Below, piece by piece: positions 4,556 through 33,734 of a stretch of DNA of 61,476 bases. This DNA comes from Acidobacteriota bacterium (GTDB taxonomy: Bacteria > Acidobacteriota > UBA6911 > JACOSC01). The position numbers were made by a program, and so were the translations under genes. The first letter of the stretch is position 1. The number at the start of each line of letters is the position of its first letter. Below the pieces are notes generated by a model that ran no database searches, was not told the origin of the DNA, and worked only from the letters and a program-made list of their open reading frames with translations. The DNA is taken from the NCBI GenBank assembly GCA_016179055.1, contig JACOSC010000075.1, forward strand, positions 1 through 61,476. The letters run 5' to 3'.

Positions 4556-5323
4556 TTAGAGCCCACCATAGCGACGGTCGCGTTTTTGATAATCAACAAT
4601 GGCCTGCAGGAGATGTTCTCGGCGAAAATCCGGCCAATAGACCGGCGTCATCCATATCTCCGCATAAGCAATTTGCCAGAGCAGGAAGTTGCTGATACGC
4701 ATCTCCCCACTGGTTCTGATCAAAAGATCAGGATCATCCAGCCCGGAAGTGTATAGGTGATCGGAAATTAATTGCTCCGTAATGACCGTATCCCGATGGC
4801 CGTTCTGAGCGACCTGTCGCATTATGGACTGGAAGGCGTCAACCAGTTCCGCTCGCCCCCCGTAATTGAGCGCGATATTCATGATCATACCGTTGTTTTG
4901 ACTGGTTTCGGCTATGGCCTTCTGCAACGACTGTTGAATATCCGGGGCCAGATCATTCACTCGTCCAATCGTGCAAAAGCGAATGTTATTTTTTATTATG
5001 GATGAGAGTTCCTTTTGCAAGTACTCTTTCAAGAGAGACATGAGAGTACTGATTTCAGATTTTGGCCTTTTCCAGTTCTCTACTGAGAAAGCATAGAGTG
5101 TCAGTACACGGATGCCAAGACGAGCCGAGGTTTCCACAACCTCTTTTACAGAAGCAATGCCGGCGCGGTGGCCGGCTACACGCGGTAGCCTGCGGGCGGC
5201 GGCCCAGCGGCCGTTGCCATCCATAATCACCGCGATATGTTGAGGGAGTCTGTCGAAATCGATGGCTTGCAGCAGAGAGTATCCCCTGGAGCCTCGGGGG
5301 GCTATTTCTTCAAGATTGGCCAT
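4556..5323 (-). CDS. uppS: Isoprenyl (undecaprenyl diphosphate) transferase
   Basis: UppS condenses isopentenyl diphosphate onto farnesyl diphosphate in the cis configuration to make the C55 carrier lipid for peptidoglycan and O-antigen synthesis. The 255-residue protein has the diagnostic IAVIMDGNGRWA near residue 31, with the catalytic Asp in MDGNGRW, then LTLYAFSVENWKRP, NIALNYGGRAELVDA and the C-terminal DLLIRTSGEMRISNFLLWQ. An AGAGG ribosome binding site sits 7 bases before the ATG at 5323. It is probably co-transcribed with cdsA. The upstream region 5393-5421 has a weak TTGATT-17-TAACAT match on the minus strand. Confidence 0.95.
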   Translation of the reverse strand: MANLEEIAPRGSRGYSLLQAIDFDRLPQHIAVIMDGNGRWAAARRLPRVAGHRAGIASVKEVVETSARLGIRVLTLYAFSVENWKRPKSEISTLMSLLKEYLQKELSSIIKNNIRFCTIGRVNDLAPDIQQSLQKAIAETSQNNGMIMNIALNYGGRAELVDAFQSIMRQVAQNGHRDTVITEQLISDHLYTSGLDDPDLLIRTSGEMRISNFLLWQIAYAEIWMTPVYWPDFRREHLLQAIVDYQKRDRRYGGL

Positions 5324-5565
5324 GAATGCCTCTTCAGCACGGAACGGTCACCTCTTCAGGATAGCGATTTCACCTAACCTAAGAGAGAGCTAATGTTAGC
5401 ATACCCCCCTGTACTAATCAAGCCGAGCCCCGCCGGCTATGGCTTACTGAATAATGGTTGACAAATCATGCCTAGCCTGAGCGGAACGACTAAAGAACGT
5501 ACATATGCGAATTCAATCGCCGCCGGCCGGCTACGTTTTCATGCGGGCCAAGGTTTGTAACCCTT

Positions 5566-6130
5566 CTTGAAGTTCGATCATAAGAACCGCAGGGATGACC
5601 GATGATCACCTCTGAGATCACATCCTAGCTTGAAATTCGATCATAAGAAACGCGCGGATGCCAAGCTCCAGTCCCGCGGAGTCCCTGAGTTTGGACATTT
5701 GTAGGGAGTGGGGTACCGCTTACAAACCCAAGCTCCGAAGGAGCGCTCTATAATAGCCAGGGGCAAGCGCAGCCCCTGGAAAGAAAGCGTCCCTAACACG
5801 CCAGCCCTGTAAGGGCGCACTAAGGGAGATCAATTCCGAGGCCGCCGTCGTTGTCTTCTATACGTATTCATCGAGCCGCAGGGTATCCCGCCCTTTCAGG
5901 GCTTATTACTTATATAATTTTTCGTACCAGGGGCTGCGCTGCGCTTGCCCCTGGCTATTATTGCCCGCTCCTTCAGAGCTACACGAGCCCGCTTAGGGCT
6001 ATGGCGGGGTGCTCGCTCGAAGAGGTGGGGACGAAAGGATCGCGCGGGGCTGTGGCCAATGTCCAAACTCCAGAGCCCCTGTGCAGGACCGGCACCGCCA
6101 CCGTCTCATTGGCTTATGATCGAATCTCAG
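5566..6130. repeat. Family A ~500 bp element, copy 2, with tandem left ends
   Basis: A left end reading CTTGAAATTCGATCATAAG begins at 5629, and a second near-identical left end (CTTGAAGTTCGATCATAAG) begins 63 bp earlier at 5566. The right end (CTTATGATCGAATCTCAG) stops at 6130. The interior matches the copy at 3014-3516, including the CCAGGGGC/GCCCCTGG hairpins, the GGAGATCAATTCC centre and the CGCCCTTTCAGGGC stem. The remaining intergenic sequence from 5324 to 5565 shows only a weak uppS promoter candidate. The element ends 81 bp before the start of the kinase gene. Confidence 0.8.
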
Positions 6131-30234: not shown

Positions 30235-30636
30235 TCATTCCAACTTTCGGTGAGTTTGTATGAAATCGACGATCTCTTTCAGAGAGGCGCCCGGCTGAAA
30301 GATGGCGTCGAGCCCCATGGCTTTAAGCTTGGGCACGTCAACGTCGGGGATGATTCCGCCTACCACCAGCCGAACGTCATCGAGCCCTTTTTCATGGCGA
30401 AGTTCTAAAATGCGGGAGCAGACGTGCATGTGTGCACCGGACAGTATCGAGAGGCCAATCACATCTACGTCCTCCTGCAAGGCTGCCTGAATAATTTGAT
30501 CGGGCGTCTGCCGTAAACCCGTATAGACGACCTCCATGCCGGCATCTCTCAGCGCGCGCGCGATCACCTTCGCCCCGCGATCATGGCCATCAAGTCCGGG
30601 CTTAGCTACCAATACTCGAATCTTTCTTTCCGTCAT
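30235..30636 (-). CDS. Cobalamin-binding protein, methylmalonyl-CoA mutase small/C-terminal domain type
   Basis: The 133-residue protein is a stand-alone B12-binding domain. It has [23 protein letters not shown] with the DxHxxG motif supplying the lower histidine ligand to cobalt (His17), then [10 protein letters not shown] and [26 protein letters not shown], the conserved SxL and GG contacts. In split methylmalonyl-CoA or isobutyryl-CoA type mutases this is the small subunit. No catalytic large subunit is in the window, so its partner must lie elsewhere. A GAGG ribosome binding site precedes the ATG. Confidence 0.9.
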
Positions 30637-30729: not shown

Positions 30730-30923
30730 GTAACCGTTCAGGGGGTCTGATGAATACAGAACCGGGAGCGGTAGCGACCGGGTCGGCACGTTGTTGTCAT
30801 CGCTCATGTATCATTCCGAGCTCGGGAGAATACATGATCGCTGACAGTTGTCGCCAGGCGCGCACCCGGTCGCTACCGCTCCCGGTTCTGTATCAGTGCC
30901 GCCTCCATGGGCTGAGCAGATAC
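30730..30923. repeat. Family D element with a perfect 29 bp inverted repeat, copy 2
   Basis: The element runs between GTAACCGTTCAGGGGG and GGGCTGAGCAGATAC. Inside it, bases 30755-30783 and 30864-30892 are perfect inverted copies of 29 bp (arms contain GAACCGGGAGCGGTAGCGAC), separated by 80 bp. The GAGCGGTAGC..ACCGGGT words also occur at 27740. The element lies between the B12 protein gene and the cytochrome-porin gene and could form a long hairpin in RNA. Confidence 0.75.
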
Positions 30924-30987: not shown

Positions 30988-32244
30988 TCACTTAATGAAT
31001 ATGAAGCGCACCTGGAAGGCGTCATCTTTTCGATTGGGACCCACAGGAAATCTCGCGTCCTTGTGCTGATACTCCGCAATGAACTGGAGGCCATTTTGAA
31101 TGGGCACATTGGCAAAAGTCGTAAGACCCCATAAGTCGTTATTTTTTTTGTCACGCGCCCGGTCGAACCAGTCATAGCGGAGACCAGCCGTCACGTAATC
31201 ATTGATGGGCACATCCACTTCCGCGAACGCCCCACGGCTGGTGAAGGTGTCCTTCGTCACCGTATGGTCACGACCGCTTTGGAAGCCGCCGAGTAGGTGC
31301 AGTTGCTTGGCGATCGGATAACTCCCATAAATCGCCACGCGGTCAAAATTATTCCTAAAAAACCCGGCGACCGAATTCACACCATTTATGGGTAGGCCTA
31401 AATTCCCATGATAGTAGTACACCGAAATGGCCCCGCCCTGCTCATGGATTATTTGGTTGAAGAACATTTGAACGTCGGGCGTGTTGTGCGCCGGTGTCAC
31501 TGTAGCCTTGTTGAGTACCCCTCCCTGAGCGGCAAAAGGCTTTAGTACCCCATCTTCCTCGCGCAGCAAGAGGCCATTGAACATGGTCACGCGAAACGAG
31601 GTTCGGCCATAATCAACTCCAACCTCGGCGCCGGCTTGATCAAAATTCCACGGCGTAAAGAAAGTCGGTTGAGTAAAGTTTGCACCATTAGTTTGGAAAA
31701 AAGGTCGGGAGAGTGAAACGGGACGGTCGGAGGCCCCATAACCTTCGAAGGGATGGAAAATGCCGACTCTGCCGCCGACGAACATCTTGGAATCGCCGCG
31801 GCTGGCCCGTATGTACGCGTTTTCGATTTCAGCATGATCTTCCGGCAAGTAAGATAACTCCACGAGAGAGGAGAAATACTTACCCCATGAGCCGGTCACC
31901 GGATAGACCGTCAACTCGTGGAAAGTCAGCCGATTATTGCGACTTGATACAAGTCCTCTGCTCATTCGATTGGCGTCATATCTTGCCTGTATGCGACCCG
32001 AAAAATAATCGCCAAGATCAAAAGTCTTCGCTTCCGGCTTGCCGATTTCATCGGGTAGTCGGAAACCGGCGGCACGGAACTTAAAGCCGACTTCATTCAG
32101 CTTGGGTATTGTCGTATGGCAGAAAGCACATTCTACGCCGAGTTTACGCGCGAAATTAGGCATCGCCATTGTATTGTCATTGCCTATAAGAATGACCGCC
32201 GTTAGAAACAAGAACAACGATATTATTACTTGGGATCTTCTCAT
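30988..32244 (-). CDS. Monoheme cytochrome-porin fusion (Cyc2-like)
   Basis: The 418-residue product has a signal peptide (about 1-27, ending TMA|MP). It then shows MPNFARKLGVECAFCHTTIP followed by KLNEVGFKFRAAGF: a single CxxCH (C39, C42, H43) inside a sequence pattern close to Cyc2-type fused cytochrome-porins, in which one c-type heme domain leads into an outer-membrane beta-barrel. The rest, about 75-418, is rich in alternating polar/aromatic strands (for example GRIQARYDANRM, FSSLVELSYL, AEVGVDYGRTSFRVTMFNG, AGLRYDWFDRA, QFIAEYQHKD) as expected for a porin. Cyc2 proteins oxidise Fe(II) at the surface. Here function is inferred; related fusions occur in non-iron oxidisers. GAGAGG precedes the ATG. 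Confidence 0.75.
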   Translation of the reverse strand: MRRSQVIISLFLFLTAVILIGNDNTMAMPNFARKLGVECAFCHTTIPKLNEVGFKFRAAGFRLPDEIGKPEAKTFDLGDYFSGRIQARYDANRMSRGLVSSRNNRLTFHELTVYPVTGSWGKYFSSLVELSYLPEDHAEIENAYIRASRGDSKMFVGGRVGIFHPFEGYGASDRPVSLSRPFFQTNGANFTQPTFFTPWNFDQAGAEVGVDYGRTSFRVTMFNGLLLREEDGVLKPFAAQGGVLNKATVTPAHNTPDVQMFFNQIIHEQGGAISVYYYHGNLGLPINGVNSVAGFFRNNFDRVAIYGSYPIAKQLHLLGGFQSGRDHTVTKDTFTSRGAFAEVDVPINDYVTAGLRYDWFDRARDKKNNDLWGLTTFANVPIQNGLQFIAEYQHKDARFPVGPNRKDDAFQVRFIFIK

Positions 32245-32513: not shown

Positions 32514-33659
32514 CTAGCGGGCGGCTTTCTTGCGGACGAAGGCCGGGATGTCGTGCGCATCGTGCAAATACGTATTAATTCCGTCACTCTCGGGTATGCC
32601 ATATTCCCGGTCCAGACGAATCGGCTCAATCACCGGCAGCACTTTGTTTCGAGCCGCCGCGGACACCGCCTTAAGCTCTTGCGGCCGTTCGAAACCGGTG
32701 GCGATGACCGTAATCTTTATCTTATCGCCAAGCTTCTCATCAAAGACGGCGCCAAAAATTATATGAGCTTCCGGATGCGCGGCCTCGTGGATAATGCTCA
32801 GCGCCTCATTGACCTCGTGTAGCGATAAACTCTCCCGGCTTCCCGAAACATTGACCAGCACACCTTTCGCCCCGCGAATCGAGGATTCCTCCAGCAATGG
32901 GCTGGCAATCACCTTTTGTACCGCCTCGGTGGCGCGGTTCTCACCTGATCCCATGCCGGTACCCATCAACGCAATTCCCATGTCGCACATTACGGTCTTA
33001 ACGTCTTGGAAGTCGACGTTGATCACACCGGGCACCAGAATCAGGTCAGATATGCCTTGCACGGCTTGGCGTAGCACATCATCTGCAATGCGAAACGCCT
33101 CCGCCAAACTGGTCCCGCGCTCCACCGTGCCGAGCAGTCGTTCGTTAGGAATCGTAATCACGGTATCGGCCCGCTCCTTTAGTTCTCTTAAGCCTTCCTC
33201 GGCATGGGCCAGGCGCTTCTTGCCTTCAAAATTAAAAGGACGGGTGACCACGGCGACGGTCAAGGCGTTCATTTCGGCGGCCAGATTCGCAATAATCGGG
33301 GCCGCGCCGGTCCCGGTTCCGCCGCCTAATCCGGCCGTGATAAAAACCATATCGGCGCCTTCCAAAAGCTCAAGAATTTTTTCCGTGTCTTCCAAGGCCG
33401 CCCGTTTGCCGATTTCAGGATTTGAACCGGTTCCCCGTCCGCGCGTCAACTTGGCGCCAAGCTGCAAGCGCGTCGGCGCCAAGGAATCTCTCAGCGCCTG
33501 CATGTCGGTGTTGGCCGAAATGAAATCGACGCCTTCGATCCCGGCCTCGATCATGCGATTGATGGAGTTGCCGCCCCCGCCTCCGACGCCTATGACTTTG
33601 ATTCGGGCTTCGCTCAAGCTCCCATCGTCCATCGAAATTTTTATTCCATTCTCACCCAT
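32514..33659 (-). CDS. ftsZ: Cell division protein FtsZ
   Basis: FtsZ is the GTPase that forms the division ring. The 381-residue protein has [18 protein letters not shown], the tubulin signature [10 protein letters not shown], and a T7-type [12 protein letters not shown] conserved C-terminal peptide, [10 protein letters not shown], would bind FtsA. An ATG at 33659 is chosen because AGGAGG lies five bases upstream, better than the GTG three bases earlier. ftsZ is the last gene of the minus-strand dcw cluster. The bases 32245-32513 downstream contain a GATCAGC-GCC-GCTGATC stem at 32356-32372 but no T tract. Confidence 0.98.
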
Positions 33660-33734
33660 CACTACCTCCTATGTTTTACCCGTTAGCTGTCAGCCGGCCA
33701 TTTCCGGTCCCCAACTGCCGATTGCTGGAGTCAA

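Follow-up and report, generated by a model that had tools for sequence, protein, structure and literature searches.

The window analyzed here is the whole 61,476 nt stretch from an Acidobacteriota bacterium (GCA_016179055.1, contig JACOSC010000075.1, positions 1–61,476, forward strand), and the gene of interest, an ORF with an ATG start at 30988..32244 on the minus strand, encodes a 418 amino acid Cyc2-like monohaem cytochrome-porin. The gene stands alone between ftsZ (32514..33662, minus strand), the upstream neighbor that closes the dcw cell-division/wall cluster, and the downstream gene for a methylmalonyl-CoA mutase C-terminal (B12-binding) domain protein (30235..30636, minus strand; NCBIfam TIGR00640, 166 bits); neither neighbor is a partner, and no redox gene is linked to it. 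None of the 14 class-level relatives with ftsA-ftsZ kept has a homolog next to ftsZ (within flanks of 1.5 kb, two of the loci stopping just past ftsZ), in agreement with the original prediction, which had called the gene setting unexpected, and the slot 3' of ftsZ differs from relative to relative. The G+C content of the cytochrome-porin gene (0.506, third position 0.563) is somewhat lower than that of the dcw genes (0.54–0.63), which would fit lateral arrival, a weak indication; promoter and terminator scans gave results near the chance level.

The protein starts with a probable Sec signal peptide (residues 1–27, 32164..32244), recognized by inspection from an RR n-region, a hydrophobic core and the site TMA|MPN, with cleavage before MPN. 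This putative signal peptide is followed by the Cyc2-type haem patch, AMPNFARKLGVECAFCHTTIPKL; the sequence PNFARKLGVECAFCHTTIPKLN is also found in the protein. The characteristic elements, all on the minus strand like the signal peptide, are AMPNFARKL (32140..32166), the counterpart of the Cyc2 motif AXPXFAR[Q/K][T/Y] (PMC8406198) with L in the last position; the haem c attachment site CAFCH (residues 39–43, 32116..32130); PKL (residues 47–49, 32098..32106), which corresponds to the PXL motif that follows CXXCH (PMC8406198); and HPFEG (residues 164–168, 31741..31755), of which H164, P165, E167 and G168 do not vary among the aligned clade members. Of the features on which the original prediction had relied, the single CxxCH in a Cyc2-like pattern is seen in the sequence and the signal peptide is probable by inspection. 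The motif occurs once in the protein and arises in 0.009% of its shuffled versions.

Across the 61 kb window, this gene is the only CxxCH-containing ORF of at least 60 amino acids, and no multihaem gene was found among the ORFs scanned for CxxCH. The earlier claim that no multihaem cytochromes lie nearby is therefore right. The absence of potential partners is confined to the window, as the genome has ACIII and Rieske/cytochrome b clusters, haem-copper oxidases and an MtrB/PioB porin, all described below. A profile search identified no paralog elsewhere in the genome, so that the cytochrome-porin is a single-copy gene. The protein has no match among the Pfam families, and its NCBIfam match to c-type cytochrome is weak and confined to residues 26–51; no conserved candidate for a second axial haem ligand was identified. 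With the window protein as the query, an IMG/VR scan and a plasmid search produced no matches; two further clade types, likewise used as queries against plasmids, gave none either. A sequence match to the PDB entry 9myp (a HORMA protein, E 0.0007) was dismissed as chance because the aligned stretch does not contain the CxxCH.

The remainder of the protein, residues 74–418 (30991..32025, minus strand), is predicted by AlphaFold and Foldseek to form a beta-barrel of about 15–16 strands. AlphaFold was run twice, on the full-length protein and on the mature form lacking the signal peptide, and both models are barrels of about 15–17 strands with moderate confidence (pLDDT 56, pTM 0.59–0.60), the haem segment being poorly modelled (pLDDT about 24–45). 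Every top Foldseek match in the PDB is an outer-membrane barrel, with porins (PorB, Omp32, DcaP, OmpT) in first place; the E values for the PorB-led matches are 3e-10 and 3e-7 (best 3e-10), and the TM-scores reach only about 0.3–0.5. The long beta-barrel-like tail noticed originally is accordingly recovered at this moderate confidence, and the product, as modelled, is a probable outer-membrane pore with one built-in haem.

Under the published description (PMC8406198), Cyc2 has a porin domain, a minimum length of 365 amino acids and three motifs: AXPXFAR[Q/K][T/Y], CXXCH and, a short distance beyond the latter, PXL. The window protein has CAFCH at residues 39–43, the PXL (CHTTIPKL), a length of 418 amino acids and, according to the two moderate-confidence models and Foldseek, a C-terminal beta-barrel porin. 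It fails the strict Cyc2 screening filter PXFAR[Q/K][T/Y], having PNFARKL with L where T/Y is required, as do all five members of its clade. In common with Cyc2 of Mariprofundus PV-1 and Acidithiobacillus ferrooxidans and with Leptospirillum Cyt572, it has an N-terminal single CxxCH flanked by a preceding FAR-type motif and a subsequent PxL, and a beta-barrel following the haem patch in a protein of more than 365 amino acids whose barrel sequence is poorly conserved; it differs from them in the motif end, L as opposed to T/Y. The MtrAB/MtoAB/PioAB systems likewise lead electrons through an outer-membrane barrel but consist of two or more proteins with about ten haems. The window gene is not a member of the MtrB/PioB family: in this genome, TIGR03509 matches contig C113 only.

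Comparison with a home-made HMM built from 11 FARQT-type Cyc2 rows, a substitute for the FeGenie Cluster 1–3 HMMs, narrows the similarity down to the haem patch. The window protein scored 36 bits versus up to 35.2 bits with a shuffled barrel, that is, the haem patch alone accounts for the score and the barrel adds nothing detectable. The corresponding values are 83.5 versus at most 46.7 bits for an HMM of the sister clade and 113.5 versus at most 65.4 bits for an HMM of other clades. Judging by these scores, the barrel is homologous to those of other cytochrome-porins, but not detectably to that of FARQT-type Cyc2, though little similarity in the barrel is usual even between accepted members of Cyc2 (PMC5566968; PMC7029218).

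In a tree of 53 rows, the window protein belongs to a clade of five members (with L059, L060, L027/L053 and L089/L096) that comes from Acidobacteriota and one Myxococcales MAG and is supported at 100/100; the sister group consists of Acidobacteriota cytochrome-porins (support 94/91). FARQT-type Cyc2, which includes plasmid-borne sequences from Caballeronia, Paraburkholderia, Methylocystis and A. ferrooxidans, branches apart as a long-branched clade of its own (support 100/100), and only the haem patch is alike between the two; the AU test did not reject joining the window clade to it (p 0.067). Clear orthologs are few and show about 40–47% identity: the scan of named genomes yielded four loci, one of them a fragment, and the class of G338 ('Acidobacteria bacterium', contig JACQDB010000065, phylum Acidobacteriota) has orthologs in 4 of 162 genomes, one partial. 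The fragment, from an Acidobacteria gp5 MAG (L062, 8545–9138), consists of two matching pieces in separate open frames, which probably reflects either decay of this copy or a break in the assembly. Across the aligned clade members, CxxCH, PxL and the flanking patch are conserved while the barrel diverges.

Taken together, the motif, the HMM scores and the tree position support the original interpretation in part: the protein falls within the broad class of Cyc2-like fused monohaem cytochrome-porins, but placement in canonical Cyc2 is not supported, given the strict motif, the similarity limited to the haem patch and the separate clade (joining not rejected, AU p 0.067).

Most informative are the gene neighborhoods of the relatives. 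A complex III module (quinol:cytochrome c oxidoreductase) adjoins all four of the other clade members with readable flanks, two of them with alternative complex III (ACIII) and two with Rieske/cytochrome b. ACIII adjoins the gene in G338 (L053/L061) and in Chloracidobacterium UBA7656 (L060); the L061 cluster has Pfam matches to Molybdopterin, Fer4, NrfD, ActD (PF11821) and monohaem cytochrome c, and the ACIII pentahaem cytochrome is recognized by PF14522 in L060 and by similarity in L053. In G481 (L096), the gene adjoins Rieske, cytochrome b and a monohaem cytochrome c, and in the Myxococcales MAG (L059), a multihaem cytochrome together with Rieske and cytochrome b. With a length of just 5.9 kb and a stated coverage of 2.8, the L059 contig may owe its placement in Myxococcales to faulty binning; the multihaem cytochrome gene (5030–5869; PF13447, octahaem/HAO-like) lies directly 3' of cytochrome b, and its ORF leaves the contig.

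The sister clade (L058, L057/L030, L100, L055, L105 and others) has the same architecture at about 20–24% identity to the window protein, without the H164-P-x-E-G motif as such, and its genes often adjoin a monohaem cytochrome c and Rieske/cytochrome b. One of them (L105, 2396–4468, G282), next to a c-Rieske-cytochrome b cluster, is a Cyc2-like ORF with three CxxCH motifs, not one.

Over the window and sister clades combined, a complex III module lies no more than 6 kb away from 9 of the 13 genes, whereas none of the 11 genes in remote clades has one so close (Fisher p 0.0006, a value that ignores shared ancestry and refers to a remote set picked by search rank); the window gene is among the four without one. 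Such modules are also found at three FARQT-type and two AWARKY-type loci, so that complex III linkage is not unique to the window clade, and the gene order differs from that of the rus operon of Cyc2, cyc2-cyc1-cup-cox (PMC10654088). The window copy thus is an orphan of a small, separate, complex III-linked clade, and the linkage in its relatives backs the originally proposed role in electron transfer at the outer membrane.

The search for partners in the genome itself, which the original prediction had suggested, was productive. Targeted searches identified two ACIII-type clusters (contigs C120 and C76), with gene sets resembling the L061 ACIII cluster, an ActE-like cytochrome c on C120, a Rieske/cytochrome b cluster with multihaem cytochromes (C37), a monohaem cytochrome c, two haem-copper oxidases (C325 and C36) and the periplasmic nitrate reductase NapA (C128). 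Because ACIII, Rieske/cytochrome b and the oxidases are encoded on other contigs, candidate partners for the path proposed below exist but are unlinked to the window gene. RuBisCO was not found in the genome; lithoautotrophy on Fe(II) is therefore not indicated, RuBisCO being the sole carbon-fixation route looked for. The MtrB/PioB-family barrel on C113 (L134, 5716–8931), separate from the window gene, is preceded by a multihaem gene that is split by an in-frame TAG inside a CxxCH motif. Another contig (C278) encodes an alpha subunit of the type II DMSO reductase family (L080, 4821–7775; TIGR03479), with a score of 843 bits where the cut-off is 985.

We propose, with a probability of about 0.6, that the protein is an outer-membrane cytochrome-porin working as an electron relay with complex III. 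In this scheme, a barrel of about 16 strands would form the pore, and a short N-terminal segment with one haem c would sit in or at it, presumably as a plug. A small dissolved redox partner could enter the pore and swap one electron with the haem. On the periplasmic side, the haem would exchange electrons with an ActE-type monohaem cytochrome c, itself connected both to the haem-copper oxidases and to ACIII or Rieske/cytochrome b; in this organism, the partners would presumably be the proteins encoded on other contigs. Most likely, a dissolved donor would supply the electrons and the flow would be inward, complex III acting in uphill electron flow or as a junction with the quinone pool. An inward direction is reasonable in view of Sideroxydans ES-1, whose ACIII genes show a sharp rise with Fe(II) and are assigned to reverse electron transport (PMC8788666). 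As to the substrate, Fe(II) would be only one candidate donor.

Proteins of this kind are already known, and the most useful part of the analysis is the linkage pattern in the relatives. The route from a porin to complex III, as put forward previously (PMC5566968; PMC8788666), rests on co-occurrence and expression data; linkage to two types of complex III would give it genetic support. A clade that fails the published motif filter yet repeatedly lies next to complex III defines a testable path, from porin to monohaem cytochrome c to complex III. A further possibility, for which we would offer less than even odds, is that these proteins are an undescribed group of single-haem outer-membrane porins with dedicated complex III partners, paired with either of two unrelated types (ACIII or Rieske/cytochrome b), and thus provide Acidobacteriota with an electron route free of multihaem cytochromes and with a substrate other than iron or not iron alone.

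The normal direction of complex III is the opposite one, oxidation of quinol with reduction of cytochrome c, so outward flow deserves consideration: electrons from quinol would pass through complex III and the monohaem cytochrome c to the porin haem and on to a dissolved acceptor, or else the relay would serve another pair (Mn, organic or nitrogen compounds). In the tested ortholog clusters, complex III is also the respiratory complex recognized next to these genes, and the L059 cluster adds the multihaem cytochrome with PF13447. Against outward flow, we know of no case of it through a monohaem porin, and a single haem in a pore suits small dissolved donors. With respect to other substrates, Cyc2 has been proposed to act on Mn(II), too (PMC9040806). 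On balance, we view this alternative as possible but on the unlikely side.

Cyc2-like genes serve as markers of iron oxidation, and many of them occur in bacteria without known iron oxidation; a Cyc2-like match outside the known clusters is no evidence for this process. A true Cyc2 Fe(II) oxidase, in which Fe2+ would enter the pore and be oxidized at the haem, with the electron ending up on O2 or nitrate and, in an uphill branch, on quinones, appears unlikely for this protein. The Cyc2-type haem patch with a barrel, the Cyc2-like gene and ACIII side by side in two relatives, and the terminal oxidases and NapA in the genome would all suit such an enzyme, as would the Fe(II) oxidation by PV-1 Cyc2 (PMC8406198) and the pairing of Cyc2 with ACIII in microaerobic iron oxidizers (PMC5566968; PMC8788666). 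Conversely, the protein is not grouped with the FARQT-type Cyc2 clade by the free tree (joining not rejected, AU p 0.067), has the haem patch alone in common with this clade, fails the strict motif, and comes from a genome in which RuBisCO was not found. Finally, it is highly improbable that the protein is mainly a nutrient porin whose haem has a structural role or is a vestige, as the separation of the window gene from redox genes and the variable slot after ftsZ might suggest, considering that CxxCH, PxL and the flanking patch are conserved while the barrel diverges and that the relatives are linked to complex III.

A separate feature of the locus, 3' of the gene, is a REPIN-like palindromic repeat (30756..30893, no strand assigned) with inverted arms that form a near-perfect predicted hairpin (z -11.4). 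The 19 nt core of its arms, ACCGGGAGCGGTAGCGACC, occurs in 296 copies in the genome versus 0 in the control, often as inverted pairs spaced by about 45–51 bases, and this dispersed repeat is also present on contigs C76 and C113.
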